From Blastocystis sp. Blastoise (lineage: Eukaryota; Sar; Bigyra; Opalinata; Blastocystidae): a DNA stretch of 64,000 bases. The notes under the pieces were generated by a model. That model searched no databases. It was not told the origin of the DNA and saw nothing but the letters and a program-made list of their open reading frames with translations. Positions within the stretch are counted from its first letter, which is position 1, and every line of letters starts with the position of its first letter. Location: the NCBI GenBank assembly GCA_039096225.1, contig JBBPEB010000011.1, positions 186,001 through 250,000 on the forward strand, given 5' to 3'. Shown one piece after another: positions 25,878 through 62,401 of this stretch. A program made the position numbers and the translations under genes.

Positions 25878-28800
25878 TTAAAACAATAAAGATAATCGTT
25901 CTCTTAATAATTGTGTTTCAACAGTCACGGGAAGATCACATGCATAGAAATAACTTTCGTAAGATGATGGAAAGTTCTAGAATATACATATATTCGTATT
26001 ATAAAACGATTAATATATATATATAGATATACATGACAACAAAGAATATATTCCTTTTCAAATTCTTGATAATTAATTTCTATACATAATAATAAATATA
26101 AGGATTATATGTATATACCTTTATGTGTCTCTTTATTAATAATTGGCCTATTTATAGAAGGAGAAGAAGAGTATATATATGTATATCGAATATAAGTTAG
26201 GAAGAGAAGTGTTATGTACATTGATTCTCTGAATTGCTTATGAATATTATTCAGTCTTCCCTCTATATATATATGTATTCCTTTCTTCAGATTATTCATA
26301 TATATAGACAAACAGAGGTCAATCCAATAAGATATCACTTTATAAGGTATTCTATATATATAATAATATATAAAATAATAACTTTCATATAAATCATACT
26401 TTTTTGTGTCTTTTGTATCTCTAGAGAGAAACGCTATACATAACTATATATGTAGATATATGCACATATATATGAATATACATTTAAATAAACTTCTATA
26501 TCTCGTGTAATAGGAATAATATTCTCTCTAGTGTCTCTATTCTCTCTAGTTTCTCTATTCTCTCTAGTGTCTCTATTCTCTCTAGTGTCTCTATTCTCTC
26601 TAGTTTCTCCACTTTCTCCATTTCGTATATACCATAATCCATCAGTTGATTTATATAAATACTTTCGAGGAAGAATAGTAGAGACATTAGAAGGACCTTC
26701 ATATATTAAATCTCTATTCTTATTATCAATTGTTGATATTGATTCTTGTATATGAATATCTCTATTACATGATTGGCTGTTCGTGTCGTTAATTCGTACG
26801 GAAGAGGAGGGATCCTTGGAACACAAAGAGACATCATTTATAACAGTTGATTGTTTATTGTCATTTGTTGTTTCATCAGGAATTACATTCTGTTGTGGGT
26901 CTTTAACCGCGGTTATCTGCTGTTTGTGATCATCAATATGTTTGACTGAGTCATTATTATTGTTATTTGTATTTTCAGTATTCATAATTGTATTTGTAGT
27001 AGTCTTATTAATAGGAATAAGAGTAGTTGTAGAAGTATTCATTGTATTATTATTATTAATATTATTATTATTATTATTAATTGATTGTTCTGTATATGTA
27101 CGTAGTGTTAAGGAGAAAGAGGAAGGGATGGAGATCGTATAATAGGAAGAAAGGGAGATATGAGTCTATATATATATATACATATACATATATATATATA
27201 TATATATATACATCATAATAAGAAGAAGATGAAGGAACAGGAATGTGAAACCGAGTGCAATACCATACGAATAACCACGGGAATATTAAGGATAATAAAA
27301 ATAGAAAAAAGAATATATATATATATATATAATAAAGGATACCCAAATAGTTTTGTTTTCCTTAATAAAATCATGAAGGTATATATAAGGAATAAGAGAT
27401 TTACTATATAAATCTTCAAACTATACATATATATAATAATCATTTTCAAATAATAATATATATATATATATCATTCTTCAATATAAAAAGATATATATAT
27501 ACATATGAATAAATAGATTTCATAGATAAGAAGGGAATATCGTTTGTTTTTGGAAACATACCTACCAGATCAGAAGGTTGAGATAATATATCTATATATA
27601 TATATAGTAAATAGACTATATTCAAATGTAGAGTTAATATTATATATATATATATACTTGGAGGAATGATCTTTAGAATAGGACCCCCTTCTGTTCCACA
27701 ATTGGGACACTTGAAGAATATATGACCCTTAACTTCTCTCTCTCCACATAAAATCTCCTATATATACATATATATAGTTATTATAATTATTACTGTATAC
27801 TTCATCCAGCATATGTCTTGAACATCCCCTACAATATAGATATAAATAAAGAACAGTTGAATCATATATTCCTATATATATATATTTATATATATATTGA
27901 AATACTTTCTTTAGAATCATGAATCTCATCAACAGAACTATATAGTTTACCGTTTTTCCCACGGTTATTCAATAGTTGAAACTCAAATTTTTCAATAGAC
28001 ACATTATCACTCTTATGTCTATTCTTTAACTATATAATAATAATAATAATATTATTATTATATACAGAAAAAAGTATAGGAGAGGGTAATAAAGAATTAT
28101 TTATATCTTTAGATTCATTTGATTGGCTATTTCTTTGTATTCTCTTTGATGATTGGTCAACCAAGTTCTTTTGTTCTTTCCATTTCTATCATAAATAATA
28201 ATAATAATAGCATATTATTCTTATAATATACTATAATATATATAATATACAAAGAGAAGTATTTGCATATAATTATTCATTTCCTGTTGAATATCTGTGT
28301 TTTCTGTGACATTAGGAAATAATAGTTTATAGAGATCAAGTAGTAGATCGTGTATATGTATATATAGAGAAGAAGAAGGAGATAGGGTAGAGATAGAGAG
28401 AGAGAATGTAAGGAAGAGAGAAAGAGAAGAAGAGAAAGATAAAGGAATATTCATAGAAATAAGATATATATAGAGATCATAAGTATATTGAATTGCTTGT
28501 ATAGATATAGAAGAAGAAGAAGAAGATATATAAAGAGGAGAAAGAAGGAACCATATGTTAAGTATATAGGAGAGAAGAGAGATATAACGACGATTCCCTT
28601 GTTGTTTCTGTTGAATTTCTTCTTCTGAAGAGAGAAGAGGAAGGTATATAGATTGATTCTCTATAATCATATATATATAATGTATAATCTATATGTAATT
28701 ATAGATCACTTTAAAAAATAAGATATATTTATATATATACGCTGAAGAAGGTGAATAGGAGCACATGATCCGCTTCTCTCGCACGTGATCGATGGCCAAT

Positions 28801-29468
28801 TAGTAATATGTGATGATTGAGGATACTCTATATCTATAGTGAATAATAGATATATATTTATTAGAAATAATAATAAAAAAGATATAATAATAATAAGAAG
28901 ATTTATAATAATAATAAAAAAGATATAATAATAATAATAATAAGATTTATAATAATAATAAAATAATAATAATAATAATAATAATAATAACTTTATACTA
29001 TGTGGTTTGGCGGGTAATTTGATAACTGTTTTATTGTGTTTATTATATATAGTAGAGTAGAGGATAGAATAAAGATAGATATATCGACTCTGAGGAGGAG
29101 AAGAAAGCATTGCTTGATACTGTATATAGAGAAATGATCTCAAATGTATATATAATGATATATACATAAAAATATTTTATAAATAACAATAACAGCAAAT
29201 ATGTAATAGTAATAAAAGAATAATATATAGAGTTATAGATAATAAACATACTTTATCAAAAAGAAGTAATGAAAATTCAAACTCTCCTTCAGGTGGAAAT
29301 AATTTCTGACTTAAAAAATTAACAAATATCTATATATAAATATACTATTCAATAGATATAATAACTAGAATTACTTGTGTTTTAATAAAATGTTTCATAA
29401 ATATAAAATAATCACGGGAAAGTCTGCTTAAATACTGTTTTGAATTAAATACATCCTCAATTCCATCT

Positions 29469-29549
<81 letters not shown>

Positions 29550-32093
29550 ATAATAAATGATACTATAATAATAGTAGATATACTGATGCCATCTATATGT
29601 ATATGAATATCTTTCTGTATATAGTTCTTATATCCTCCTACTAATAATGACATCACGTCCAAGAAACAACGATATATATCTACAGACACTGTTTCAGGTA
29701 CTTCTAATGGCGGGGAAGAAGGGAAAAGGAGGGAATATTGAGTTTGAGAAGAAGATGAAGAGAGATCTAAAGTTTTATTATAATTATTATGATTATTATT
29801 ATGATTTTAATAGAAAAAGAGTGAAATTAAAAAAGAGAATGAAAAGATTTTTAAATAATAATCGATTATGAAATATACATTTTGATTGTTGTTTCTCCTT
29901 TGTTAAATATTGCTGAACTTGGCTGATTACAGTTGACATCTTCTGCTGAATATCTAAATATATAATATGTAATATATATATATATGTATATACCTTTAGG
30001 AAGAGAGACGGGGAGACTTGATTTCATTTTCTTTGAAGAAGAAGAAGAAGAGGAATATATAGAGAGAGAATCATGATCAATATCAATGACGAGTGCATCG
30101 TCAGGAATACAACAATGGACCATATCACACTAGTATATAATTATAATAAAACAGTATATAAAAATAATAAAACAGTATATAATAATATATATGTAATACA
30201 ATATATATATATACAGTTCGTGTTCCGATGACGCATGTGCCTGGAACATCAACAGCAAAGAGAAGAGATGGTGGGCAAAGAGGGATATATGTGCCCGCTA
30301 TTTTAAAGGGAAAGAGAAGTCTATGTATAGCTTGAAGAATGAAAAATAGAAGACAGGGAGAAGATGAATAAGCTATTATCTATATATACATATTAATAGA
30401 GAGAAATCAAGATAAAAATGAATACATATATATATACTTTATATTCGAGTAGTATTCCCGTGATTATATCGATGATAGTAGGAGGAGAGAGTGTAGAGAG
30501 AAGAGGAGAGAGAGGAATCTCTGCGAAGGGCAATCCACGACTTTTGTGACGCAGGAATTCAATCAGATCTACAAGAAGATATATAGTGTATATATATAAT
30601 AATAATATTTGAATATAGAATAGAATAAATACCATTTTGTGTCCAGTTGATGATGACAGATGTCCCTAATGACGGAGCTGGAACACTATCAATTAATTGG
30701 CTGATATAGTATGACAGAGGCAGTGACGGTGACGGATGACGATAAAATGTATATAATTGCCTATATATATATATTTAACAAATATATATATATATATTTA
30801 CATAAGAACTTTTTTCATTTCAATAATATAAGGATATTGAGAGACAAGTAGAATTCCCTTGGGAACTAAGATTTGATCCATAGAGATACCTTCAAATTCC
30901 CGTGGGAACAAACTGAGAAGAAGTTCTTTTTGTTCTTTTTTCAAAGGTTCATAAAGTGTTATTGACACACCATATCTCTATTGATATATATATAATATAA
31001 TATATAATATATATAACACATAATATATATAATATAACATATATATAACATAATATATAACATTATATATATATATACATAAGTGCCAAGAACGGTATGA
31101 ATGAGAAATGGTGTCCACGTGACAGGAGGTGGAGTATTCCATAGAAATAAGGAGATTCCCGTGGGAAAGAGGAAGATATCAATTACTAATAGTATATAAT
31201 ATATATAAATGTACATGATATAATATATATATACAATCAGGACAAGGTTTCTTAAGGGGTAATTGATCATTAGGATAATACTCCTTTATATATGGAGAGA
31301 AGAGGAGAGAGATGGGAGAAGAAGAAGGATCTTTATAGAGGTATAAGAGAAAAGGAGGAGAGAAAGAAGGTAAGGTAGAAACAGAAGAATATCCGTGGGG
31401 ATAAGAAAGAGACTAGGCAATAAAAACATATTATATACATTGAAAATAAATATATGTAGCTTACATTTTTATATTTATCAACAGAGATCTCCACAATTGT
31501 GAGAGGATAAGGATATTTATGAATATGATTTCCTCGTCGTTGAAAACTAAATAAAAATAAATAGATAAAAATATTCACATACATTAAATAAATAGGTTTT
31601 TTTCGTTTATGAGAGAAATTAATGACAGTTCCTGTGTTTAGATCCGTTACAGCTTCATAGCCTTCTTCTCTTTTCAATTTATAGGTTTCTAAATCCACAA
31701 AAAGAAGATCAATTATTTCTAAATTTGGTATAAAACTAATGGATCTAGAATAATGATAATGATATTTCATTCAAATGCCATCGATATATATATATTGAAA
31801 CTAAAAATACCTCTTGATGAAAAAGGAACGACGTGTTTTTGTAGAATTTAAATAAACAACATAGTCATTCACAGATGTATCATCTAATAGATCATAATCA
31901 AATGGTGAACTCTATGGAGATATAAATAATTATTAAATAACACATAAAATACAGTAGATTCAGCCATCACAAGGTCACTAATGGCGTTTCCTCTTTTATT
32001 ATTCATTGGAACATTGTTAGGATCAAATGTATGTTCGAAATCTGCAGTAACTACAGCATAATAATCAAATAAATGTTTGTCAATTGTTGACAT
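25878..32093 (-). CDS. DENND4-like DENN-domain Rab GEF
   Basis: DENN proteins activate Rab GTPases by nucleotide exchange on membranes; the animal DENND4 group acts on Rab10. The start at 32093 reads MSTIDKHLFDYYAVVT. An MABP-like segment follows (EEGYEAVTDLNTGTVI, KPIYL). The uDENN part has FPTGISLFLWNTPPPVTWT and YGVSITLYEPL. The cDENN core has IIAYSSSPCLLFFILQAI, LLFPFKIAGTYIPLCPPSLL and FAVDVPGTCVIGTRT, then IPDDALVIDIDHDSL. Towards the C-terminus EILCGEREVKGHIFFKCPNC matches the Cys-rich DENND4 tail, and a segment reading WLFVWYCTRFHIPVPSSSS matches the DENND4 FWNLVWYFxRxxLPS block. It ends ACDLPVTVETQLLRERLSLL. A six-residue RENRDT repeat and Asn runs pad the tail. There are more than twenty short introns. 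Treating it as one gene is inferred from the domain order. Confidence 0.8.
26520..26615. repeat. 18-bp coding minisatellite (RENRDT hexapeptide)
   Basis: About five 18-bp units in the DENND4-like tail encode RENRDT or RENRET. Units differ by single bases. Confidence 0.9.
29473..29541. repeat. (TA)n microsatellite, intronic
   Basis: A dinucleotide run of about 70 bp within an intron of the DENND4-like gene. Confidence 0.93.
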
Positions 32094-37699: not shown

Positions 37700-38189
37700 T
37701 TTCTCGAATATTAAACATATATATATTATCTATTATTAAAGTTTATTTTCTAATTTTTACTTTTTCCTTTTCACAATGTCTTCTTTCTTTTTCTGAATCC
37801 AGTTATAACGTTATTGTAATCCTAGTCTTTATGAAAATTTCGTATTCATTTTATTTTCATATTTAATCATTTAGTTTCGCAATTCCTTTTTCTGATTTTT
37901 ATTCCCCGAATTGTTTCCTATTGATATTATTATACAAATATTGAACTTTTTTTCAATTATAATTATCTTCTTTTTATTTACTACCAAAATCATAGAAATA
38001 CTCAAAGTATAAATGAATAGAATAGCATCCAATATACATTATCAACTAAAAATACAAGAAAAGACGATAATACAAAATGTTATTAAAACATTAAATAACG
38101 ACGGGGATTCAAAATTATTCAGTGAAAAAGAATTTATAATGAGAAAGAAAAAGAAAAACCATTATTTTATATTGAATACATAGTCCACT
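37700..38189. other. Intergenic region
   Basis: AT-rich spacer between two + strand genes. Nothing recognised beyond the expected 3' and 5' untranslated regions. Confidence 0.55.
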
Positions 38190-39713: not shown

Positions 39714-40149
39714 GAAGAACAACGCACACAATTTCATTAGTATCTGGCAATTATAAATCTGGAAAGTCACAGTTCGTATGACTTATGATAGTTATTATTT
39801 ATAAAATATCTAGTTAGTCAGTAAGATCAATGAATTACTTTTAAATGGGATCAAAGGTAGTGAGATTCTCGTTTTAAAGTATCCTTTATTTTAGTTACAG
39901 TATAATACTATGTATATTTAAATATATATGAATCCTTAATTATCATTTCTTCCTTTGATTCTGCACAGAAACTTCAAAAACGTCTTGATGTGTATATAAA
40001 TTCTATTCAATATTATTTATAATACATTGATATATATATACTTTAAACTAAGTATGTGTCTCTATATAGAGAATGTCCTTTTTCATCCATTAATATTGAA
40101 AATCATTCCATTTCCACTTATGGACGTCATCTTTATTCAGTATTTTATT

Positions 40150-40194
<45 letters not shown>

Positions 40195-41736
40195 AATTAT
40201 TATTATTATGTTCATATTTATGATTATATAGATATTAAATGAACCATTTCCATTTTTATTTCCTTCTAATGAAGTTATGGGAAATCTTCAAGAACAATTA
40301 TTCTTTCAATCACAACAGTATATATATATGTATATTTGTTATATGTATATATATAAATAGATCAAAATTACCTATTTCAATTTCTGATACCTTAAATTCT
40401 TTTAATTCAACAAAAACATATTTAAATTATATACATTTGCTACAAGTATATAGTTATATTTATTTATATATAATTATATATTTTTGAATATATATATATA
40501 TAGTTATATAATATTTCTCCTGAAGAATATTCGAAAGAATTACAAAAGATTTGTTTAACAGAAGGATATAATGACGAACTCTCTGATGTTCAAAATATAG
40601 AGTCACTTTTGTATTTATTATTCTATTTATTATTATTGTTTTTATTATTATTATTATATATTATTATTATATATTATCCCTATAAATGTAGTTCTCTTTC
40701 CCAAAAATCATTTTCTTTTGTGTATTCGCAATATAATCATATTAAATCACAAAATAACCGAAAAAATGTTTTTGATATTTATTTAGATATCGATAGATCG
40801 CCATACAAGAAAGATATTTATTCTTATTTATCAAATGTATATGAATATATATATATATTATTTAGAAATATATATATATGAATATATTTTTATTATTTAG
40901 AAATATAAATATATATTTGTGGACAATATTCATTTTTTTCCTCCATTACTTATTTCATATTTATGTCAATATTCCCATGGGAATACATCTCTTTATATGA
41001 CTTACAATCCTTATTATCCTTCACCATTTGGATTTGATTTCATAACGTATTTGACGCAACATCTGTCATCAATAGATCATCATCAACTGCCAATAGAATC
41101 CACTGTTTCCCCTCTTGTGTACTCCGTACAAATGAAATATCAACATGGTATATATTATAATTAATATGTATATATAAATATATATTATTATTATTATTAT
41201 ACTATAGTTTCACTTCCTATGTCAACATTATCAACACAGCCATCGTGTATATATATATATAGTAATATGTATAGTAATATATATGTAGTATACTTTAAGA
41301 ATTATATATCGAAGGAGGATGAAATGGAAGGAATTTCTTTACAAATTAAACAGATTATAGATACCTATAAAGGTATATAATACATATAATATTCATACTA
41401 TTCTATATATATATACAGATATTCGTTTATCAGATATAGCAGTTCTTCTACCAAATATGTATATATATATATATATATTATTATTAATATATATTAAAAT
41501 AGAAAAAGTGTGGAACAGTATTATAAATATTTCAAATCGATTGGTATTCGCACAAATATTCAGTTTCCTTTAGATGGTGTATATTAATATTGAATATTAT
41601 TATATATATTATATAGTCAATGATATATTATCATATATTGCGTTGTATATACATATCTCCCCCTCCTCCTGCCTCTCTCTATGAAGTACTATCTTCTCTC
41701 GTCACAACTGATCATAATAATAATAATAATATCTCA

Positions 41737-41809
<73 letters not shown>

Positions 41810-43238
41810 GCATAAACAATATAAGTGAAGATTTCCTTAATATTCAAAGTATATATACATATATATATATATATATAATTCATTTATTTAGAATATGCAT
41901 ATCAGCAGAATACATCTCTTTGGAATATAATAGAACAACTATCAAAGAATAAATCTATGTATATATATATACTATTACTATTCTATATATATATATATAG
42001 CGAGAAACTATCTCCCTCATCAGTAATATTATTCAAACAATTGTATTCCACAATTGTGTCTCTTAATCCCTCCTTAAACCCTCGCTATACTCCAAACAGC
42101 CGTCTGATTCTCTTTTTAAAAAAAATTCATCTCTATGATACTACTGTATATTCTATATTATATATATATATATATAGGATAAATCTTCTTTAAATAATTT
42201 TATCAAATTAATTGATACATATTCAGAGTCATTGTTAAATTCCCGTGGGAATGAAGAATCTTTTGATTCAGATTCGTTTTTTAAGTATACTATTTAATAT
42301 ATATATATATATATATATATAGAACAATACGAATGTTAACTATGTTTCCAGTGAATAATGACGATGATTCCTTTGAGCCAATAAAAACAAGCGACGATGA
42401 TAATTATGTTCTTGATAATGATCTCCAATCACTACAATTGTGTTCCTTAAAACGAGAGTCAACGTCTTCAATAAAAGTATATATATATATACAAAAACAT
42501 ATATATCCTCGTTAGTATTTGTTTATTCCTTCCCTTGTCAAACCAAGAACATTAAAACCAGTTATTCATAAATATATTCATTATTCTGCCTTGCAATCTC
42601 ACTATAATCGTGATTTTTTTCATGATGTCCCTAATTCATTAGAAACTTTTAAATCCAATAGTATATATAATTCCTTCTTATCTTATCTCTCCTCTTCTTC
42701 TTCTTCTATATATATATCTACTTACTCATTCTCTTCCTCTAAACGTATTACTCCTTCTATTCTTCTTTATGACTTCCTCTCATTCTATTCTTCACTACCA
42801 TTGCAACTAAATCCCCGTGGGGAAATCGATCTTCTAGCATATCGATATCAATATCATAAATGTATAGCTCGTATCTCTTCAGTGAAATCCTTAAATAAGA
42901 AAATAATTGATAAGGAAAGAGAAGAAGATATATTCATGTATAATAAACTTTACAATGATGATAATAAGAATAATAATAAAACAAACATTCAACACAATAT
43001 GAGCAATACTAAAAACAATAATATCTCCACAAAAACACAAACAACAGAAGAAAATACAAATTGTAATTTATATATTCCTCAAGAATCCACTATTCCAGGA
43101 ATAACCGCGAATATCAACAATAAAATGGTGTTTTATTTAAGTTATTCACGGTTATGTTCTTATGAATCTTGTCCTTACTCTTTATACTTACGTTATGTAT
43201 ATATTTATTATTTATATTCTATATACATATTATTCTAT

Positions 43239-43269
<31 letters not shown>

Positions 43270-43574
43270 TATACTATATATATAGGTCAGTAAAGAACAA
43301 TCAGATGCTAATATATATATGAAATATGGATCATTTCTGCATTCTATTATTCTTGATCTATCATCATATATATATACTTTATATATATATATATATGAAC
43401 TATTTATGAACTAAAAAATATATAGTACTTATATTTATTACTATATATATAACATAAACGATATATATAGTATATATATTCCGAGTACAGAAATCTTCAA
43501 GATTCTGATGATTTTACAGAGCTAATAACCGCGGTTATTGATAAATATTGGAAGTCAAATGATTTTAATACATC

Positions 43575-43640
<66 letters not shown>

Positions 43641-44472
43641 TAGAGCGTATCTTTATATAATACTTTTATTTCTATTTCAAAACAATTTGTTAAACGAGAA
43701 ATTCATAATAAAAATCTAAACCCCAATAGTATATATTTAATATAATAAATATAGTAGAATATATTTAATATAATAAATATAGTAGAATATAAAAATCATA
43801 ATTCTAATAATAATAAAATATATAGATCGATATATTGGTGAATATCCATTTTCATTTGATATTCCATTAGCGGGAAATATTTGTACTTTTCGCGGGGTAT
43901 GGGATCGAATACAAATGTATATATATATAAACATAATATTATTGATATAAAATTTGTTTCATCTAGAAAAGATGGGATTCCCGTGGGAATAACTGAGTAT
44001 AAATCATCCCCTTCTGTTATATTTCAGTCTTTATCATCCAATGAGATGCAAGCAACCCTCTCTGATGATAATATGAATACAGAAAAAACAGTAAAAAAAT
44101 GGAAACAACAATATCAATTTCAATTAGATATGTATATATATTATATTATATGTATATATATTATATACTATGTATTATATACTATTATATACTATGTATT
44201 ACAACTTTATTATATATATATATATAACTAGGTATATTCGTGCATTTCAAACGTTATTTGGACGCAAACCACAATATGTTCGATTAGAGAGTATCGAGAG
44301 TCCTATAGGAATAGATATAGATATAGATCAATGTAATTATAATGAATTAGATAAACGTATATATACTTATATGTGTAATATACAAAAACATTATTTTGAG
44401 CCCAATTCGAATACTTTTCATTGTTCTTTATGTGAATTTAAACATAATTGTAAATATTCAAAAACAGTATAA
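39714..44472 (+). CDS. UvrD/AddB-like helicase-nuclease with C-terminal PD-(D/E)XK (RecB-type) domain
   Basis: Many small exons encode one protein. The first seen has a Walker A loop, ISLVSGNYKSGKSQF. KYKYIFVDNIHFFPPLLISY (about 40900) occupies the motif II position; as in AddB, it lacks the full DE pair. SDIAVLLPNM ... YYKYFKSIGI matches the C-terminal UvrD fold (xIAVLxR ... GIP). The nuclease domain starts FYLSYSRLCSYESCPYSLYL, followed by KYGSFLHSI (conserved His), TFRGVWDRIQM (catalytic Asp), ITEYKSS (Glu and Lys) and QYQFQLDMYIRAFQTL (QLxxY motif). It ends HCSLCEFKHNCKYS: one Cys before the core plus CxxCx5C after it is the 4Fe-4S arrangement of AddB-type nucleases. The active site is complete. 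A poly-Asn run lies at about 41730. The role is probably DNA end processing or repair. The start codon is not resolved. Confidence 0.78.
41734..41808. repeat. (AAT)n tract coding a poly-Asn run
   Basis: Trinucleotide run read as AAT on the plus strand, inside an exon of the helicase-nuclease gene. Confidence 0.9.
43524..43539. repeat. 16-bp perfect GC-centred palindrome, example of a recurrent motif
   Basis: AATAACCGCGGTTATT is its own reverse complement and lies in an exon of the helicase-nuclease gene. It is the longest perfect member of a motif family (ATTCCCGYGGGAAT / AACCGCGGTT) seen repeatedly in host exons; the other copies are listed in the findings. Confidence 0.8.
43578..43638. repeat. 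(TA)n microsatellite, intronic
   Basis: A dinucleotide run that makes up nearly a whole intron between the NTSSV exon and the next exon of the helicase-nuclease gene. Confidence 0.93.
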
Positions 44473-45313
44473 AGAGTATTTTTTGAATATCATAATAGTT
44501 TTGTTATCTTCATATTTATATTCATACAGTTCAGACAGATATAGTATAATATAAATGACTTCATATATATTAATAATCATAATTATGTTATACATAATAT
44601 TCATTGATATATTATAGATTATATTTTTAAATAAAGAACTAGTAACAAAACTAGATATAATAAACAGATTTAATTATTTTTTTAAAATTTACTTGAAAAT
44701 CTTTGCAAGGAAAAATTAATATACTATAAAAAAGAATATCAAAAATAAAGAAGACAAAAATGTAAAAAAACAAACAGAAAGAAATAAAAAGAAAAAAGTA
44801 TTTCTTAAAGAGTGAACTGTAAAAAAAATATATATATATATAATATATAAATATATAGATATATATGTGCAAAAAATATATATAATACAACAAGATATTT
44901 GTGAAACAGAGTGGGAAAAAAAGAAAAGTAAATAAATTGTTATAAAGAATTAAATAAAAAAAATTAAAAAATAATTATTATATAAAAACTTAATATATAT
45001 ATATATATCTTATAAACTCAATAGTAGCAATAAGAGAAGAAAACAATAGAGAGAGAATGAATAAGTATATATAAATAACAATATATAAATAGAACAAAGA
45101 ACAAATAACTATATATAAATATATATACATATATATATAATGAAAAATAAATAAATTTTTTAAAAAGACGAAAAACTTGCATCAAGTGGTTTTTTGAAGC
45201 TTGTAGAGGTATATAAGATATATATATAGTTATATATATATAGAAAATAGTATAATAGAATATATATAGTATAAAGAGAGAAATATAATTATATGAATAT
45301 ATATATATAGTTA
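44473..45313. other. Convergent intergenic region
   Basis: Between the 3' ends of the helicase-nuclease gene (+) and the Ubl/ARM gene (-). Very AT-rich, with several short (TA) runs, and no gene seen. Confidence 0.6.
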
Positions 45314-46368
45314 TTATTTAGTTTGAACAGCCGTAGGAGTTACACTTTCTGTATTATATAATTCATCTAAATTAATATTTGTATCTATATCTAAAGAAGA
45401 ATTTATATAGGGAGTGGGGGTTCTAGAAGAAACACTAATATCATCAGATAATACTATAGGAGAATGAAGAGACACAATTTGTTGATTCGTCGAATCTGTT
45501 AGCAGATCAATCTTTTCAGAAACACTATTAGAGTCACGTGATGTACTCTCTTTGTTTTGTTCTATAGAATCATCCTTAACACATACAGTTGTTTGCACAG
45601 ATTCGTTATGTATACTTGATTTATTCGCTTGTTTTTGTTCTTCTTCTTCTTTTCTTCTATTATTATTATTATTATCTGAGATATTATTCTTATTATCTGA
45701 GATATTATTCTTATTATCTTTATTATCATTATTATCAGTATTATCATTATTATCAGTATTATTATCTTTATTATTAATATCTAAAATATTATTATTACTA
45801 TTATTATTAGTATCTTTTTCTATATCAGTTCCAGACTCATTATCTTGTGATTTCGGTACAGGAATGACCATAGAGCTGAATGGATTCAGATTCGTTAAGA
45901 TCTCCTGATGGACGCTGAACATAGACGATGTCTTTGTATGAGAAGCATTATTCGATATATTTATATCTTTTGATATAGTAGTTGATTTAGTATCAGACAC
46001 AGTAGTTGAAGATGATTGGTTACAAGAAGAGGGATCCTGCGGAATAGTATTTCCTTCTTTATGATCATTAGGTAGTGAAGATATATTATTCTTATGAATA
46101 TCCTGTAGGATCTCAGATGTACTAGGTATAGGAGAAGGAGTAGGTGTATGGGTAATACTAGGAGAATGAAGAGACACTCCCTTCGCTTCTAATATAGCAT
46201 CTACATCCACATTATAAGATATAGAAACAATACGACTCTTTGGAGACGATAATTCCACGGGAGAAATGGAATTCTGCTTGGATATTTTATCTGTATTAGC
46301 GGGCATAGATAGCGCGGTAAATCGAGGAGAAGATAAAGATGGAGAAAGAATAGATAAATCAGAATTAA

Positions 46369-46402
<34 letters not shown>

Positions 46403-47749
46403 CGTAGTAGTATCAATATTCATAGTATTAGCATTATTAGTATCATTATTATTAACGAATACAGGAGTCCCAAGAGAATAGTTCGTGTCGACATGTTCTC
46501 CATGAGCTATATATAGAGAGGAGATACCTTGAGACCCTGTACGTAGATATGTTAAATGTTGACTATTTCTATAATTAGGAGAGTTGTTTTTAAAAGAGAC
46601 AGAGCTATCGGTAGAGCTGATATCAGAGCTATGAGAAGTAGCACGTTTATGTACATGAAGTGATTGTCGAGCAAGTCTACTAGCTTGTGAGGGAGTTGTA
46701 GTAGGAATAGTTGAAGGTGTTAATAAGTTATTATTTAGTGGTGTTGTAAGAAGAAGACAGTTCGAAGATAATGGAGGAAGAGGAATTGGCGGGAGATTTG
46801 AACAAAGCGCGGGAAGCGAATTGGTATCTTTTGGAGCAGGAGAGAATCTAGACATACTCATAGGTGTACCTATGGAACTATTATCATTTTCATAATACTC
46901 TGTAGGATATTCAGTTGATGGACAAGTATATCTTAACATAGGATTAAGAGAAGAAGAAGTAGCAGAGGCAGCTATTTCTTGTTCTGTTGGTGGTATTTCA
47001 TCTGTTATAATCTCATTATTCTCATCAATAAACGTTAATGTACTACCCATAAAACGTTGAGTATTATTATTATGAAACATAGATGATGATGTTCCATCCA
47101 CAGAAAGACACGTGGATGGAGCACGTGATGTAGTGGGGGATATTGTAGAGATAGACATGTGACCATCATCTACATCTGTATTCAGTAGCGTTGGGTACAT
47201 TAACGGAGTTTTAGGAGCACATGCTTCACGATTATATTGTTGTAAAACTATATATATATATATAATTATTATTATTATTAAATAATGATTCTAGAATATA
47301 TATATCTAAGCTTATCTATATAATAATGATAGATAATATATAAATAGAATATACTTGATGTGAAATATGTATTTAAAAGTGTCTGAACAAATTGAATGAG
47401 ATTTTCATCATTTTTACGATTATTATATATATAATAAACAAAAGGAAAGAAAGAAGAAGAAATACTTGGATTATGATCTATATATATATATAATAAATAT
47501 AGATTATATATAATAAAACTATTCATATTAATATATAAATCATTACTATTATAGAGAATAGCTTCAATGAATTGTAATATTTTAAGAAGAACCGCTGAGG
47601 GTTGATCTGGAAGAAGTAGCAAGTTACATAATATCTCACACGCATTCTTACCAAATGTGTCACCTCTATCAAATACTATACATATATATGTAAATAAAAT
47701 AAATTATTATATACACCAAATAATAAATTATATATATATAAGTAAACAA

Positions 47750-47801
<52 letters not shown>

Positions 47802-48226
47802 TATCTTTTTGGCAGTCAACAAGAGTGATTAATAACTCCATGATTCCCGTGATTATGGCTTCATTTAAAGGGTAAAGAGTAATAATACGAAAGAGGAGAT
47901 GACATAGAGGATAAGGAGTATAAGGCAAACATTTCTCAGAATCTATATATATATATAGAATATGGTATAGAGAAAATAGTAATAATAATATTATAGATAA
48001 GATATTATATTAATATACAATTCATAAAAGTATAATCATAAATATAAATATAATAAGTATAACAATAATAATAAATAATAATAATAATAAACATAATAGC
48101 ATACGTTCTTGACATAAAGTAGATATAATAGAAATTGCTGCTATATGTATTTGAGGAATAATATCTTTATTAAGGGTCCACATAAGAATATCCGAGAGGT
48201 TTATCTGATCCGCTACAAGGTCTATA

Positions 48227-48268
<42 letters not shown>

Positions 48269-48701
48269 TATTATATATATATACCTGGATTGATTTCTTG
48301 AATTTGTTTAATATATTGTAACGTATAAAGAATAACTTTATTTTCGCATAATATATTATTCATTTTATATAAAGATCCTTGAGCCTCTTCTTCTTCTTCT
48401 TCTTCTCTCTTCGTAACTAAAGAATAATATTGATCAAAACTATCTTTATAAAGAAGAGAGAAATGTTTCTTATTTTCTAAAGTAGAAGTGAAGGCAGAAG
48501 AATGAAGAGGAATAATAAAATGACTATTTATATAAGAAATAACCGCGGGAAGGAAGTCACTGGATAGAATAGCATTGCTCATTATAGCTATATATATATA
48601 TATATAATAATAAAATTATAATTAAAGTATATATAAAATATAATATAGAATTGATATAAGTAAAAAATACAAAATATATAAGAGTAAAAAAGAATACTCT
48701 A

Positions 48702-48777
<76 letters not shown>

Positions 48778-50218
48778 TATTATCAACAGCTATAGTAAGA
48801 GTACGAATAATCGCGGTAATTATTTCATTATCTTCTTTTTGTATATATATATGTAGCTGATCGAGTAAAAACTGAACTGTTGAAATCATATCTAATTCTT
48901 TTACTACTATATAGAAGTGTATTAACGAGGAGGAGAAGAAAAAGAAGAAGAAGTATAAGAAATAAGACGAAGAATATTAATACATACTAATAATAAACAA
49001 AACAAATAAAAAATATAATAATAGAAATAGAAATAAAAAAAAAGTGTGAAATAAAATAGAGTATATATATACATAGACTTTGGCAGTTAATACAGACAGT
49101 GAGAGCTAATTTCAATAATTCGCGTTGTCTTTCGGCGGGAACGATAGCATTTGCATCTATATCAAAATCATCAGAACCGCGGGAATCGATATCTAAGGAT
49201 AATGCAGATGTATCGACATGAGCGAGAGAAACACGGTTTATAGCATGTTGACTTAATTTAGTTAATATTCCCACGGGAATATCCTCAAATATAGTAGATT
49301 CTATAATAATAATAGAATGTAAATATATACAATAATAATGATTATGATTATATTATTATACTTATTAGATTATATTTATTATTATATTATTATATTATTA
49401 TTATATTATTATTATTATATATATACTAATTGAAGATAGTTTGATGAATAGAGAGTAGAGTTGATATACATATACATATAAATTGATATCATTAAATGCT
49501 TTTATAAATATACGTATATGCTCTGGATGAAACAGAGTTATATTCTTAGCTATATATATATATATATATAATTATTATAATTATTAAAATAATTATTAAA
49601 ATAATTATTAAGAAAGATATCAAAGTAAGAAATATATATAATATATTTATATATATAATGATGAATACTAATAGTAAAAGATATTATATATATATATATA
49701 TACATCTTTCTAAAAGTGCTTGTGTAACATCTAGAATGGGAAGAAGAAGTTGCATGTAATTGAGAGGGTTAGTACGGAATACATAGAGGATATCCGAGAG
49801 GATATCACGTGACACAGCAAATGACATGATTCCATCTATTTATATATATATATAATATATCATTATAATATCAATTATATATATACGAGAATTGAGAAGG
49901 AGTCTCATATCAACAAGTGTTTGATAGAGTAATTCCCGCGGGGATGATGTAGTAAGTAGAATACTAATATCATTGAGGAATCGTCGACGGCAAAAATCAA
50001 GATCTTTCTCAAAACAATCTATATATATATATAAAGAGAGAATTATATAAAAGGATTTCAATATAATATTTATATATATATACTATTTTTAAAATAAGGT
50101 TTTAAAGCTATTTGTAGATATTTTCCAATTTGTTTGTGTTGATAACTGAATGTATTCATATGGAGGAGGGAACGATAGAGAGTGGCGGGCAACTGGAGAG
50201 GGTCTATAGTGGGAATAA

Positions 50219-50250
<32 letters not shown>

Positions 50251-52480
50251 CTATGTAATTCAAGAGAGAGAAGAAGAGAGAGAACAGAAGAGCAAACAAA
50301 TACACTCTGATAATAATGAGAGAGAACTATTTCCACTTGAGACACAATGGAATTGTATTCCGTTGAGTCTAAAGGGTCTTGTACTATATAAGAAATAGGA
50401 TAATATATAAATATAATAATAAAAAAATAGTATATAAATAAAATAATAATAAATAGAATATAAACAAAATAATAATAAATAGAATATAAATATAATATAT
50501 AAATAAACTAATATTCATATATATATACCATAATAAAGATTAGTAGCCATAAGAGAGAGACACATGGATATAATCGTGGGAATTTGAAGATAATCATTAA
50601 TACATTGGTGATAATATCCCATCGAAATACGACTCACTATAATATCACGATTCTCTTCTATATATATATATATAGATGAGTTATAATGAATAAGAATATA
50701 TATATATACTATATTGTTGAAGACCGAAAAGACAACCGAGTGTGTTTTTAATGGCATTAGCAACTGTATCTTTTTTCACCAGGAGCACGTGCGCGCAGAT
50801 ATCCGTGAGGGATTTCCCAATGGATCCAGTAACAGGATAAATAGGAGAATCTATATACAATATATATATAATAATAATAACATTAATAATATTATTATAA
50901 AATAATACTAATAAAACTATATATATATACCAATGATAGCATATAAACGTAATATGGACATAATGACCGTTATTCCCGCGGGAGTGACGTTATCTTGATA
51001 GATATAAGAAGAGAGCACTTGAAGGAAGTTTTGAGGAATTGGATACTCATTGTATATATCTAGAAGAATAATGAAATATATAGATATATATAGATATAAT
51101 AAAATATAATGTAAATATGTGTTATTTTTACATAATACTTAATGTATATAATAAAGAATAAAGAATTGAGATATATACATTGTTTAAAGATTAAGAATAT
51201 AATATTCATCAATTGACTATTAAATAGAAGATCTTGAGTAGAAATAAGAGTAATAGCAAAGTATAGAAGGACAGAAGGAAGAGTAACCTGACGTTCATTT
51301 ACTATAGATATATATATATATAATAGATATAATAACATATAATAAATGTATATAGTAAATATAATTGATATATATATAGAATATAATAAATGATATAGAA
51401 TAATGAGTATAATAATATAAGTTTATTCTTTCTAAATCCTATAGAATAGTATACATTTATTAGTAATAGCAGGAAAGCAATGACATAAATATTGAGTATC
51501 TTTTTTATTCATTCGAAGAATGTAGAGAAACAGATCAAGCGAAGGATTCTCAAATAATCTATACAATAGGGAATATAATAATATATAATAAATATAATAA
51601 TAATCAATATAATAAATATAATAATAATAATAAATAAATATAATAAATATAATAAATATAATAAAAATAATAAATATAATAAATATAATAAATATAATAA
51701 ATATAATAAATATAATAAATATAATAATAGATATAAATATATATACTTATTAATCAATCTCTGTTTCATAGCAACATGTTCAACGACCTTAGTCTATATA
51801 CATATATATATATAAGTATTCCAATAATAATAATAATAATAATAATAATACTCTATATATACTTTAAGTTTATAATAAAAAGGATGTTGTTCTGTACAAG
51901 TATAATCCCAAATGGAGGGGAAAATATAACGCGGTACAGGACCCTCTGTGTCACACAAACAATAATCATCATTATTTAAACCTTCTTCCTCCTATATATA
52001 TAAATAAATAGTAAAAAATATTCTATATATATAATAATAAAAAATGAAAAATATACAGCAATAATTTCTGAAATGTCAAAAAAAGTGTAGTTACTAGATA
52101 AATTGTAATGTTTAACTTTGTCATCTGAGATGACAACATAATAATCGACATTGTGATCTTTAACCATATCAATACAGAATTCAGTATTACCTTCTGAAAC
52201 TGGAAAAATGGTATCTAATGTACTGTCTTCAGACAAAAATAGAGATTTGTACATAAGAACAACTGATCTTGGAGTAATACTGTATGTTTCCTAAAGATAA
52301 GATAAATAAAATATTCTAAAAAATTTAAAAAAAAACACATACTCCAACTAAAGTGATCAACTCATTGACAGTACTTTTGGAGCTCACCATAAGTTTCCTC
52401 GTCTCTTTGTCAGAAGCCTTAATGATTAAGGATATATTACATGTATAACGAGGAATTAATAGATCCGGCGCAGTATTCAT
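45314..52480 (-). CDS. Large ubiquitin-like / armadillo-type helical repeat protein with disordered tail
   Basis: I do not recognise the orthologue. The start at 52480 reads MNTAPDLLIPRYTCNISLII, and the first two exons (SSKSTVNELITLVG, ITPRSVVLMYKSLFLSEDST) have the length and pattern of a ubiquitin-like fold. About twenty short exons follow. They encode pairs of amphipathic helices typical of HEAT/ARM solenoids, for example LPSVLLYFAITLISTQDLLF, YNSIVSQVEIVLSHYYQSVF, IHIAAISIISTLCQE and YPLNEAIITGIMELLITLVD. The last exon (45314-47200) is a single 600-residue disordered region rich in Ser, Thr and Asn with repeated LHSPxxx segments, ending SVTPTAVQTK. No catalytic domain is visible. A scaffold or ubiquitin-pathway adaptor is a guess from the architecture. 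It could be two genes, but I see no internal stop or new start that demands it. Confidence 0.62.
47755..47801. repeat. (TA)n microsatellite, intronic
   Basis: Dinucleotide run forming most of an intron of the Ubl/ARM gene. Confidence 0.92.
48705..48775. repeat. (TA)n microsatellite, intronic
   Basis: Dinucleotide run of about 70 bp in the intron that follows the exon ending IIRTLTIAVDN of the Ubl/ARM gene. Confidence 0.92.
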
Positions 52481-53007
52481 ATTTCCCTTTAGAACTAGTA
52501 GCACTTAGTCGAGTTATATATATTTCTAATGACAAATAGCTTATCTATTATTGCCAAATTATTCAAATATGAATGAAAAGTTTAAAAACAAACACTCTTC
52601 ATTTTTCCTTGGGAGATTATCAAGATTCTAAAACAAAAATGTTTCTCCCAGATAACCACGGTTCTTTGTTTCATTTCCATTCAAGAAATAAATATGTCAT
52701 CCTAACTCCTTTGTTAAAGAGATTTACATAAGAAATCAACCTTTTCAAAATCGTAAATGAATGGATTGCTAACAAGTTCTTTTTATAATGTCATATTCTG
52801 TATTTCTATGTATTCAGCAAAGTAATATATTTTGTTAAATCAATAAAAAAAAATTATTGATTTCAAATTGACATTTATGAGATAGAAAAGATTTTTAAAA
52901 TACTGATATATGACGAAATTTGATATTATAAAAATCTAATTATCATTAAACTATCTTTTTAACAAAGAACACCAATTTAAAGACTAAAAACATATATATA
53001 AAAGAAA
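52481..53007. other. Intergenic region
   Basis: Promoter side of the Ubl/ARM gene and 3' side of TBCB. It holds an AACCACGGTTC palindrome-like site at about 52653. No gene seen. Confidence 0.55.
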
Positions 53008-57450: not shown

Positions 57451-60400
57451 TTAAACTTTAACAGTTTTAGCAGCAGTATTTTCTCCACCTTTCTTACTAC
57501 CTGATCTAGCTTTAGAAGAGATCTTCTTATCAAGATTAGAATGTCCCTTATTCTTACGTGATTTAGTTCTATTAATAATGCAAAGAACAACAACACCAAC
57601 AATAATAACAGCTAAAATACCAATAATAATCCAAGCATAGATAGGAAGACCAGGTTTCTCAGTAGAGGAAATATAGACTTCAGTTTCAACAGAACCAGCA
57701 GTATTTGTACAAGTAACAAGATAAGTTTGAGATTCAAATATTTCAGCAGCAGTACCTGAAATAGTACCAGTCTTAGTATCAAAATTAATACCAGTAGGTA
57801 AAGTAGCATCAATAGAGCAAGTGAATTCAGCAGCAGATACTTGAGGAACATAAGAGAAAGCAACACCTTTATATACATTCATCATCTTTGTACTATAACG
57901 AATTCTTTGAGGAGTCATTACTGTACAATAACTTTCTTCAGTACCTCTTACACCATTAGTACATAAAGCTTGAATTCTACCTTGATAATAAGCAGCACAA
58001 TTCTTATAAGCATAAGCACCTTCTAAAGCACCACCCCATCCTTTAGCTTCATCAGGATTACAAGCACCATTAATATTCTTAGTATACATACTAATTTCAG
58101 CTAATTGGAAGCCTTGAACGCCGGCAGAATACTCACAATTCTCATCAGTATCACTACTACCTAAATTACTGTTATCACATTCTTGAGCTAAGAATCTATA
58201 AGCATTATATACTTTATTATTATAAAAATCAACAGAATATTCTTCACCAAAATTCTCAAATTTCTTACTAGAAACAAGATTTAATGTAGACCAATTTGTA
58301 CCATCATTAGAACCTTGGAAACTCCAAGCAGAAGGATGTCTCTTATTACATTTAGGACCAGTAATAATAGAATAAGAAGAAATATATTCCTTTCTATCAT
58401 TATTGAATGTCCAAGTAGGATCAGCACCCACACAACGAGTTTGAGCAACATAAACAGATCCCTTAATATTATCAAAAGCATTTGAAACTGTATCTTCAGT
58501 AGCAACACTACTAGAAGCAGTACCATCAATTACTCTATAACTACCTTCAGCAGCAACTAATAAGTTAGCATCAAAATCAATAACAGTACTAGTAGTAGTA
58601 GAAGCTCTATGAACTTCAACAGCAATAACATTTGCTCCTTGAACTAAATTACCAAATGAAACAGACATCGAAGAACCAACATAAGTAGATTCACTCTTTT
58701 CTGAAGAAGCATAAGTATTATAAGAAACAGAACCAGTAGCTATATTATATCTATATTGTTCTTGGCCATTAATATATACAACAATACCATATTTAGTCTT
58801 AATATTAAAGACAACAGAAGCATAGCTAGAAACTGACTCAATAGTAAAAGTCTTTCTAAAATATTGAGTAGTACCTACAGCAGCTTCAAAAGCAGAAGGC
58901 ATAGCTTCTTTCCATGTAGCATCAGAGAATGTAAGTGAATTCCAGCCAGAACCAGCAGCAGATCCACTATTAAGATATTTCCATGTACTATGTACAGGAG
59001 GAATAACATAACCAACGGAAACAGTGAAAGTCTTTTCAGATTCACCATCACCAAGAGAACCACCAAGAACAAGAGAATTATCTTCTAAAAGAATTTGGAA
59101 ATAGCCAGAATCCCAGCCATCACCACCACTATCCGTAACCTTTAATGTATATACATCAGCAGATTTACAGAAAGGATAATAATTATCTTGATCATTAGTA
59201 AAACCAGTCTTTGAAGAAATAGCAGCACCAGATTTATCAGATAATACATAGCCTTGTTCATTACCAGCAGCACCAGAATGAATACGAAGAACAAACATAA
59301 TATTAGGAGAAGTACAAGCAACTACAGATAAAGTAACAGAAACAGATGAGTCTTGTCCTTTAGGATTACTAGCAGTAATAGTATAAGATTGAGAAGGTAA
59401 TAAAGTGATAGGAGTACCACGAATAGAACCAGTAGAAGTATCAATTTCTAAAGGAAGATTAAGAGCAGGAGTGATACGGAAATTACCCCAAAGAGAAGAA
59501 GAAGGAGTTACTTCAGGGAAAGGAACACCTATATAACCAGTAAAAGTAGTAGAAGATAAAGAAAGTGCAGGAATAACTAATTGATCTAAATCTTCAGTAG
59601 ACATAGTAATTAAAGCTAAAGCAAATTCATAAGGATTAGCAGAAGGTAAAGCAGGTTCAGTAAAATAGAATTTATATTCATTCCAAGCTTTAGTATTTTG
59701 AGGTAAATAGAAACATCTTTCAACAGCTCTACCAGAGAAATAAGCATTCGTAACATTACCTAATAATGTCCAAGTAATGCCTACATCATTACTACCATAA
59801 ACAGCCCAATCAGAAGGATCATAAGCTTCATTAAGATAAGAAGAAGTAAAACAATATTTATTAATTTGTTCAGCTCTAGCTGTACCATAATTAAGAAGAA
59901 CAGTAGCAGGAGCAAGAGCAGCAGGAGATACATACCATGTTGTAGTAGGTAAAAGATCAATCAAATAAGAAACACCACTACCTGAAGGTTCATCAGAAGC
60001 AGTTAAATCCCAATTTCTACCAAGAGCATTTGTCTTAAAGAGTTGGAATGAAGCATCAAATAAAACAGTAGTAGGATTATTACCTGCTAAATTAACAATA
60101 CCAATAGCAAGAACGTTACTACCTACTTGAATATGTGTATTATCGCCACTAATATAATGGAATGTAGAAGTACTATCACCACCAGTAGCAGCTGTAGCAG
60201 TAGTAATATCGCCAGCAGAAAGATATGTTCTATATAATTCAACACCATTCATATAAACAACAAAACCAGCTCTAGCTTTTACTCTTATTTCAAAACCTAC
60301 ATAACCAGTCTTTGTAACAACAGAAACTACATTTCTAAATAACCAAATAGTACTTGTTGTAGCAGGAAGTGGGTCCATACTAAATGCAGAGAATCCCGTG

Positions 60401-62401
60401 GGAGTAGCTGTACCATACCAAGCAGCAGGAACACTTCCTTGAACATATTGCCAATTAGAAGCCTTAGGAGCAAGAGCATAAGCAAAATCAAAAGTATAAT
60501 CATTATTAGTAGTTTTATGTTCATAAAGAGAAGCAATAGGATAATAAGATCCTTCATAATCATATAATTCAACAAATAAACGAGAACCAGAAGTCCAACC
60601 ATCACCATAACTATCAGCAACAGTTACAGTATATACACCAGAGGCAATACACATAATAAAGGTTTGATCAACACTATTTGTAAGAACAGGAGAAGAATAC
60701 ACAACACTACCTGCAGCATTCTTCATAGTCCAAGATTCTTCAGTTGCCCAACTCTTATTAACTTTTCTAAAACGTAAATTCGTATGAGTAGGAGCACTAC
60801 AAGCAGTAATAGTAATAGTCATAGCAAATGTATAAGATTGTCCATTATATGAAGCAGAGATTGTATAAGTACCAGAAGAAGCACTAGTAGGAGTACCAGA
60901 GATACTACCGGTAGTAGCAGACAGAGTAATACCATCAGGGAATGCAGGTGAAACAGTAAATCCAGTATAACCATTAGAAGCAGGACTAACAGAAATAGTA
61001 TCGATTCCAGCATAACCAGTAATAGTAGAAACATCATATTGTAAACCAGGAGCAAGATAAGCATAATTACAAACGAATACTTGCATTAATCCAAGACTAA
61101 TTTTACCTGAAATAGTACCAGCTGTAATCTCTAATTTATATTGAGAGAAAGATTTATCATTTGAACGAATAGGGAAGTTCACAGTAACTTGTGTTGTAGA
61201 GAAAATATAATTTTCTTTAGCATCAAGAATTGTCCAAGTATTTCCATCAGTAGAACCATAGAAATTCCATGTTTTAGGATAACCATAAGTAGATACAGTT
61301 GAAGAAGTAAGAGCATATGTATTTACCCATTCAGAAGTACCAGCAGGTAAAGTATATACAAAAGTAACTGAACCACTTGTACTACTATAGAAATAAGTAC
61401 TTATACTATTATCAACAACTTTACTAGCACCATATGAAGTAGAGGATCCATCAGGAGTAGAAGTAATAGTACCATCAAAGAAACGAGTATTAGAGCATTC
61501 ACCACTTTCAGCAGAACCAAAATAAGCACCACCAACATCAAAAATATCAGCTCCAGCAGTAACTCCAGAAGCTTGATGAATTTCAATAGCAATTACATAA
61601 GTACCACTAGTAGGTAATAAGAATTTATTAAATGAAATTCTCTTATTAACAATAGTTGCATCAGTAGCAGAATTAGCAACAGAACTACCCGTTAAAGTTC
61701 CAGAAGGTAATTTATATCTATATACTTCAGTACCTTGAACATAAACAGCAGCACCTTCTCCTGTCTTAAGTGTAAGCATAAGAGCACTAAAAACATCACG
61801 ACTAGCTAAAGTCTTTTGTAAACGATAATAACGAGTAGTAGCTGTAAATGCAGGCATAGAACCAGAATTAGCAGAAGACCAACTAGCATCACTATAGGTA
61901 GTAGCAGCCCAACCAGTTCCAGATTGAGAGACATCAGAATATTTCCAAGAAGAACCAAGACTTATTTCAAGATAAGGATTAAAAGTCTTGACATCTTTCA
62001 ATAATGTTCTACCACTTTGATAAGGAAGACCACCTCTGAAAATTTCAAGTCCACTAATAGAAATGACAAGATAAGCAGCAGCAGTAGACGAACCCCATCC
62101 ATCACCATAACTATCAATTAATTCAATAGTATGTAAACCACTAGTAGAACAGAATGTATAGGTTTGATCAGTACTAGATACACTTGATGTTCCACTAACA
62201 GATAATACTTGTGTACCCGTAGTAGCAGCACCTCTCCAAATAACAAAAGATTCTTCACCAGCATAAGAAGTATAATGCTTCATTACAGTAGCCTCAAATT
62301 CACCAGTCTCACAGGAGAAAACTAAATGAAAATAATTTTTTATCTAGAGATAATTATATACCAATAGCTAATAAAAACAATAATGTTGTAGCTAATTTCA
62401 T
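57451..62401 (-). CDS. Large modular surface protein: signal peptide, galactose-binding-like, discoidin-like and He_PIG Ig-like repeats, one TM
   Basis: Exon 1 (62401-62362) encodes MKLATTLLFLLAI; a 40-bp intron follows, and exon 2 (62321-57451) carries the rest, 1636 residues in all. The signal peptide ends near VFSCE. Three similar modules follow. Each has a DSYGDGW-type turn (the third DSGGDGW), a jelly-roll segment with the word WKYSD/WQYVQ and an (V)YxxGxExYRY strand, a discoidin-like coagulation-factor segment (NFYGSTDGNTW, WAVYGSNDVGITW, WSFQGSNDGTNW), and a He_PIG Ig-like domain (GITLSATTGSISGTPTS, EIDTSTGSIRGTP, GINFDTKTGTISGTA). A membrane helix near residue 1580-1603 (WIIIGILAVIIVGVVVLCII) and a basic KSRKNKGHSN tail end it. 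This is a type I membrane protein, probably an adhesin or glycan-binding surface protein; ligand unknown. Codon use is more even than in neighbours. Confidence 0.88.

Follow-up and report, generated by a model that had tools for sequence, protein, structure and literature searches.

A palindrome iterated across the genome of Blastocystis sp. Blastoise, its location in exons and the spacing of its neighbouring copies

Highly iterated palindromes are known from bacteria, where their purpose is disputed, and HIP1 of cyanobacteria occurs in genes in any frame. DNA-binding sites inside codons are known from humans as exonic transcription-factor sites ('duons'), and the X-box of RFX proteins is a 14-base inverted repeat with a CC-RY-GG-like centre (R, purine; Y, pyrimidine) and a half-site ending in AC. 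According to the accessible part of one report, HIP1 is the palindrome GCGATCGC, iterated across the genome (PMC4390886). Here, a 14-base palindrome was analysed that recurs in a 64-kb stretch of the stramenopile Blastocystis sp. Blastoise (Opalinata; contig JBBPEB010000011.1, positions 186,001 to 250,000; hereafter the window). The iterated palindrome is real and genome-wide, its copies numbering from many hundreds to thousands. It is a DNA signal, present in coding exons beyond protein-coding expectation, and the 41–42 bp spacing of neighbouring copies is newly described here.

Unlike the duons, the Blastocystis sites are dominated by a single motif, at about 19-fold over its reversed control. 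The motif is alike to the RFX X-box as a 14-base inverted repeat with a CC-RY-GG-like centre and differs from it in a half-site ending in AT, not AC. HIP1 is the nearest known case of an iterated palindrome, one palindrome being iterated genome-wide in both. The Blastocystis motif is distinguished from it by its occurrence in a eukaryote, by a degenerate 14-base site with two half-site types, whose consensus is ATWMYCRYGRKWAT and lacks the core GCGATCGC, by near-absence from introns, and by neighbours four helical turns apart. A HIP1-like nature had been proposed in an earlier, sequence-only reading of the window; the likeness established here is one of abundance. With the EBF/COE (Collier/Olf-1) site of animals, as given in the accessible part of PMC4512700, the motif shares the sequence ATTCCCNNGGGAAT, the dimeric site and the 2-base spacer, and it is unlike that site in its RY centre, in accepting GGTTAT and other half-sites and in being mostly exonic. 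The same reading knew of no described equivalent in a eukaryote: apart from this one variant, which is the animal EBF/COE consensus, no earlier report on Blastocystis motifs or eukaryotic iterated palindromes was met in the openly licensed literature searched, so that a description may still exist elsewhere in print. Neither ATTCCCGTGGGAAT nor ATTCCCACGGGAAT occurred as an exact word in that literature, whereas ATTCCCNNGGGAAT occurred in two papers.

Genome-wide counts and architecture of the site

Exact words were counted in the whole genome (33,333,487 bases, 34 contigs), with the reversed word or consensus counted alongside as control. A palindromic matrix was fitted on a local set of 264 kb, consisting of the window and twenty 10-kb stretches picked by position (2.5 kb being N); the score of a site is its matrix score. 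The fitted consensus was the 14-base palindrome ATWMYCRYGRKWAT, present at 2065 places in the genome against 107 for the reversed control. ATTCCCNNGGGAAT was counted at 278 places (control 1), ATTCCCGTGGGAAT at 69 + 64 places (control 0), the GGTTAT/GGTTAT form ATAACCNNGGTTAT at 79 places (control 3) and the mixed half-site form ATTCCCNNGGTTAT at 217 + 213 places (controls 1 and 0). In the local set, approximately 138 sites were estimated by the matrix (0.52 per kb). A score above 9 was reached by 79 sites, compared with 3–5 in each of three simulated sequences, 3 under a reversed-column matrix and a mean of 5.3 (maximum 13) under 60 column-permuted palindromic matrices. Within the window, CACGGGAA was found at 14 places versus 0.73 expected and ATTCCCGTG at 12 versus 0.27 (order-3 Markov model, both strands). 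In a scan of 6-base half-sites at spacings 0–8 in the 264 kb, with pure A/T words left out and only words with 4 or more places considered, ATTCCC at spacing 2 took rank 1 (Poisson p = 1e-14). An excess of one palindrome over composition, as in HIP1-type iteration, was found in the whole genome and in the local set. The genome-wide count had been named in the sequence-only reading as a test that could refute it; with 278 places versus 1 and 2065 versus 107, and with the motif present outside the window too, the proposed iteration survived this test.

Half-sites were mainly of the types GGGAAT and GGTTAT, and the gap between the two halves was 2 bases in almost all cases: when 0–5 bases were allowed, 278 of 313 places in the genome had 2. 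Genome-wide, GGGAAT/GGGAAT pairs numbered 278, mixed pairs 430 (217 + 213) and GGTTAT/GGTTAT pairs 79, the mixed pairs being somewhat over-represented against approximately 368 expected from half-site frequencies; the corresponding local sites (GA/GA, GA/TT, TT/TT) numbered 15, 25 and 6. The centre dinucleotide was GC in 31, GT in 29, AC in 27 and AT in 12 among 106 local sites. Two other words were also in excess in the 200-kb sample (both strands), CACGTG with 48 places versus 24 expected and GGATATCC with 10 versus 1.1; these are possibly further dimer sites.

Location in genes and spacing of neighbours

The local set was partitioned with a home-made gene finder into 129.0 kb of predicted exon (31% G+C), 67.0 kb of intron (11%; of the form GTATA..TATAG) and 65.5 kb of intergenic sequence (23%). 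Of the 79 sites scoring above 9, 61 were exonic, 16 intergenic and 2 intronic, which agrees with the exonic location first noticed in the window. Spliced coding sequence held 60 sites above 9, versus 8–14 in six synonymous shuffles, which preserve amino-acid order and not codon-pair bias, and 1–5 in three codon-order shuffles; 86 coding sequences held 81 sites above 8 versus 23.75 in the synonymous shuffle. All three codon phases were used, unevenly, by the 119 exonic sites above 6 (48, 59 and 12). The view of the sequence-only reading that the motif is a nucleotide signal and not a peptide motif thereby withstood the comparison with codon expectation. Since more sites remained in the synonymous shuffles, with amino-acid order kept, than in the codon-order shuffles, the data suggest that the signal may shape proteins too.

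A site above 7 was present in 34 of 91 predicted genes. Counts were uneven across genes (chi-square 110, 62 degrees of freedom), and 35 of 63 larger genes had no site versus 19.6 expected. Density rose with coding length (Spearman 0.56, 63 genes), from 0.07–0.39 sites above 8 per kb in four length classes below 1.8 kb to 0.46 (1.8–2.7 kb), 0.78 (2.7–3.6 kb) and 1.18 (more than 3.6 kb). Relative to the synonymous shuffle, the seven classes gave ratios of 1.6, 1.7, 3.0, 4.6, 2.4, 2.6 and 4.7, in order of increasing length. In the same 63 genes, no significant correlation was found with third-position G+C, codon-usage axis, disorder-type residues, asparagine or introns per kb. Complete long genes, approximately 27 in number, had 2 sites in their first 500 coding bases (13.6 kb together) and 53 in the remaining 55.6 kb; resolved further, none lay in the first 250 bases (0.4 expected according to the shuffle), 2 in the following 250 (1.2 expected) and 53 beyond (13.5 expected). 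One gene on contig C4, chosen because a site cluster was visible there, carried 11 sites in a coding sequence of 2.84 kb. Site-bearing genes include those of DENN, PDDEXK, TIMELESS and DEAD-box proteins. Few or no sites were seen in the transposon region of the window and in some long, apparently lineage-specific genes (judged by eye), and likewise in some conserved genes, the numbers being small. The sequence-only reading had reported none in what it called a CACTA element (16.6–25.5 kb); this holds for sites above 7, and four weaker ones (5.3–6.9) are present.

Neighbouring sites were examined through the pattern GGGAAT-N14..44-ATTCCC, found at 63 places in the genome versus 12 reversed. Among the 50 of these 63 places on which the length statistics rest, 40 were 36–42 bases long (7 of 31 lengths open; p = 1e-17), and 34 of 44 after removal of six repeat copies (p = 2e-14). 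This length equals a centre distance of 38–44 bp, with a peak at 41–42 bp, i.e. four turns of B-DNA. Lengths of 40 and 39 bases were the most frequent (13 and 12 of the 50 listed) and are adjacent, so that no multiple-of-three effect is at work. Flanks were examined for 40 of the 50 places (32 of the 36–42 class and 8 of the other 10; one without a left flank). In the 36–42 class, 27 of 32 had at least one palindrome above 7 and 12 of 32 had both above 5, compared with 3 of 8 and 1 of 8 at other lengths. In the local data, sites above 7 were never less than 41 bp apart after merging of overlapping windows, and six unrelated pairs lay at 41–43 bp, in a pair set that includes ten loci chosen because they hold sites.

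Near-identical inverted repeats of 63–67 bases starting GGGAATTTTTTTGCC (C6:39758-39824 and C11:39919-39981) were caught as spurious motif-half pairs and are perhaps a small mobile element.

A candidate DNA-binding protein and other explanations

Protein binding is favoured because of the fixed inner spacing, the independent half-sites and the neighbour spacing of whole helical turns, and the evidence for it now exceeds that for the other readings offered from the sequence alone. That the palindromes are sites of a candidate DNA-binding protein is considered highly probable. One protein dimer would occupy each palindrome, and two dimers would cooperate on the same face of the DNA, four helical turns apart. 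Introns at 11% G+C indicate a strong A+T pull, so that G+C-rich exonic 14-mers would need upkeep; selection would maintain the sites against this drift. The protein may coat, organise or protect the bodies of long genes, for example by ordering chromatin or stopping intragenic transcription starts. This role in gene bodies, proposed because of location alone, is the weakest step and must be called doubtful, while the explanation as a whole, a cooperative dimeric binder inside genes with a gene-body role, is held to be the likelier account.

Several observations weigh against this explanation. Lowering the threshold brings in closer local pairs, 4 of them at score 6 and 15 at score 5, and 20 of the 32 close pairs lack two good palindromes; therefore, part of the 42-bp signal consists of a palindrome and a half-site. 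Half-site pairs at 62–92 bases are also in excess (53 versus 4 in the control), and the 50 of these 53 that were listed gave no peak at the doubled spacing of approximately 80 bp. Helical periodicity (10.5 bp) was not significant, the best period of 105 local pairs being 10.8 bp and below the 95% point of a jitter null; with this period test and the missing peak near 80 bp, nucleosome or helical periodicity was rejected. The gene structures derive from a gene finder trained and run on the sequence alone. Raw density shows the length trend clearly, but the ratio to the shuffle, which is uneven across classes, does not, so that the trend is partly a matter of sequence permitting the motif; depletion at gene starts is likewise expected by the shuffle (1.6 versus 2 observed in the first 500 coding bases). 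In three paralogues on C15/C17, approximately 85% alike, four shared sites varied in 3 of 56 columns (hand count) versus 58 of 625 other exon columns, a difference in the direction of conservation that is not significant; 2 of the 3 changes concern the R/Y centre, where the motif tolerates them. For all called sites, 8 of 70 columns varied. Searches of the genome for the RFX (PF02257) and COE (PF16422) domains gave no match and were uninformative, the control being silent too.

An ordinary transcription-factor regulon, in which COE-, RFX- or E2F-like enhancer or promoter sites would be exonic in many cases by chance, is regarded as unlikely. The identity of ATTCCCNNGGGAAT with the in vitro EBF/COE consensus published in PMC4512700 (accessible part) speaks for it, as do 9 sites above 6 in the bin 100–200 bp upstream of genes versus 1 downstream, and 10 of 12 intergenic sites above 7 between tandem genes that lie nearer a gene start than an end (hand count; some close neighbours). 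The upstream excess was small at scores above 8, however (12 versus 10 over 800 bp), most sites lie in the coding sequence of unrelated genes, the centre is RY here, the GGTTAT half-site is absent from the EBF/COE consensus, and no COE gene was found in the search with the silent control, E2F not being searched. A promoter element alone was rejected, the upstream peak being weak and not the main location. A HIP1-like product of biased repair or methylation, which would create and keep the word without a selected function, appears decidedly improbable. Abundance and palindromy recall cyanobacterial HIP1, for which methylation-dependent mismatch repair is proposed in the accessible part of PMC4390886, and the alternation of GC, GT, AC and AT at the centre is what CpG decay could yield. 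The introns are nearly free of sites (2 versus 61 of 79) although a location-blind process should hit them, and the 41–42 bp spacing is not predicted; biased repair, one of the suggestions of the sequence-only reading, was not supported, and location speaks against it. Nor was CpG methylation supported, observed/expected CpG contrasting little between exons (0.67), intergenic sequence (0.77) and introns (0.70); 129 of 2081 exon CpGs lie within sites above 6. The only C5-methylase-like match found (PF00145) was Dnmt2-like by its CFT motif, which we take to be a Dnmt2 signature; other methylase families and N6-methyladenine (6mA) were not searched.

An element acting at the level of the mRNA (hairpin, splicing enhancer or export signal) would account for exons holding sites that introns do not, and for a mild sense lean, with gene-sense words of the TTCCC type at 32 versus 21 of the mirror GGGAA type. 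It is given very little credence: the lean is slight (TTCCCGTG 11 versus CACGGGAA 9 in gene sense), intergenic sites exist, and the half-sites do not pair. Since the half-sites combine freely, a stem is excluded; the RNA hairpin was ruled out because the arms do not covary and mixed pairs (430 versus 278 and 79) are the commonest of the main half-site classes. Least probable of all is an artefact of codon pairs or peptides, or an origin as repeat-family relics. The peptides IPVG and DSRGN do recur, and one paralogous family and other repeats account for a few places. Against this stand the synonymous shuffles (codon-pair bias not kept), the reversed and permuted controls, two main codon phases with unrelated peptides, and a spacing rule independent of multiples of three; the codon or peptide artefact was ruled out by the synonymous and codon-order shuffles and is contradicted by the genome counts too.

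A bolder form of the dimeric-binder explanation, considered rather improbable, would make the sites an exon-embedded address system: long native genes would carry cooperative dimer sites within their codons, constraining codon and amino-acid choice, and through these sites one chromatin protein would recognise a gene body as 'own' and organise or license it, whereas mobile elements and recently expanded families would stay unmarked. A eukaryotic, exon-concentrated case with its own spacing rule would show that a DNA-level signal can mould codons throughout a genome, and the protein that reads the signal could be isolated directly from such a system. If true, it bears on the recognition of long genes in chromatin and on the extent to which synonymous sites behave neutrally.

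Sites of the window and further observations

The window was read at all 20 coordinates given in the sequence-only reading. ATTCCCGTGGGAAT was exact at 42239 and 43977, and the variants at 30896, 31155, 30853, 40971, 49267, 49932, 50972, 42811 and 60392 were as described. AACCGCGGTT was found at 26905 and 43527 (inside a 16-base palindrome from 43524) and AACCGCGGGAA at 48541 and 49175. Half-sites were present with small deviations: CACGGGAAT begins one base after the reported position, at 3440 and at 27276, and at 25926 and 29412 CACGGGAA is present with a different last base (G or A follows).

Table 1. Scored sites, predicted genes and other features (positions of the window unless a contig is named)
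Feature	Position	Strand	Score	Remarks
Site ATATCCACGGGAAT	3435..3448		12.0	50 bp to 3485 site
Site ATTCCCGTGATTAT	3485..3498		11.6	
Site ATTCCCGTGAGAAT (gene sense)	12891..12904		14.2	
CACTA element	16600..25500		6.9, 6.4, 5.7, 5.3	No site >7, four weaker; name of the sequence-only reading, identity not re-examined
Predicted DENN gene	25878..32093	-		8 sites >7 in 4.24 kb coding; PF02141, E 1.8e-30, first 649 residues searched
Site around AACCGCGGTT, ATAACCGCGGTTAA in gene sense	26903..26916		12.2	
Site ATAACCGTGGGAAA (gene sense)	27955..27968		11.2	
Site ATTCCCTTGGGAAC	30853..30866		10.0	43 bp to 30896 site
Site ATTCCCGTGGGAAC	30896..30909		12.0	Partner of 30853 at 43 bp
Site ATTCCCGTGGGAAA	31155..31168		11.7	
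Site ATCCCCACGGATAT (gene sense)	31389..31402		10.9	In DENN gene
Intergenic site	38095..38108		10.1	Centre 88 bp upstream of predicted start
Predicted gene	39988..44472	+		7 sites >7 in 3.06 kb coding; weak PDDEXK nuclease match (PF12705, E 2.4e-5)
Site ATTCCCATGGGAAT	40971..40984		12.6	
Palindrome ATTCCCGTGGGAAT	42239..42252		14.6	Exon of predicted PDDEXK gene, peptide NSRGN
Site ATCCCCGTGGGGAA	42811..42824		12.0	
Site ATAACCGCGAATAT	43101..43114		9.9	41 bp to 43142 site
Site TTATTCACGGTTAT	43142..43155		10.2	Partner of 43101 at 41 bp
Palindrome ATAACCGCGGTTAT, second half-site type	43525..43538		12.5	Peptide ITAVI
Palindrome ATTCCCGTGGGAAT	43977..43990		14.3	Exon of predicted PDDEXK gene, peptide IPVGI
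Predicted gene	44805..52480	-		11 sites >7 in 4.91 kb coding
Site ATAATCACGGGAAT (gene sense)	47843..47856		10.9	
Site ATTACCGCGATTAT (gene sense)	48807..48820		11.5	
Site around AACCGCGGGAA (at 49175)	49173..49186		11.5	
Site ATTCCCACGGGAAT	49267..49280		11.8	Peptide IPVGI, minus strand
Site ATTCCCGCGGGGAT	49932..49945		12.3	
Site ATTCCCACGATTAT (gene sense)	50570..50583		10.4	
Site ATTCCCGCGGGAGT	50972..50985		10.1	
Intergenic site	52652..52665		11.1	Centre 179 bp upstream of predicted start
Site AATCCCGTGGGAGT	60392..60405		8.7	In He_PIG gene
C5-methylase-like gene	C34:405600-408600			PF00145 match; short A+T-rich introns

The product of the gene at 44805..52480 gave a sub-cut-off match to a ubiquitin-like N-terminus (partial query, four residues mistyped). 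A frame of 1630 residues at 57451-62343 (minus), G+C richer than its surroundings, encodes putative domains of the Ig (He_PIG) and F5/8 type C kinds, and its C-terminus includes a hydrophobic stretch. At 11256-12119 (minus), a bacterial-type ROK-family sugar kinase was noted (best non-self match 57%, next Paenibacillus 32%), for which gene transfer is possible.

Outside the window, ATAGCCGTGGTAAT occurs twice, 76 bp apart, at the start of an enolase gene (stretch L015, 2129-2142 and 2205-2218), where it seems to have misled the gene finder. Stretch L017 holds an inverted gene duplication (1-2990 and 7300-10000), approximately 97% identical. Among IMG/VR viral contigs, L045, L049, L094+L102 (one contig), L096, L085 and L146 carry 4–6 copies of ATTCCCRYGGGAAT each, the total of the exact word in viral contigs being a lower bound. 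These copies, in unrelated sequence, were intergenic in 23 of 27 cases and lay 19–36 bp from a predicted open-frame end in 15 of 27; the most likely reading is that the operator of a phage regulator has converged on this word.

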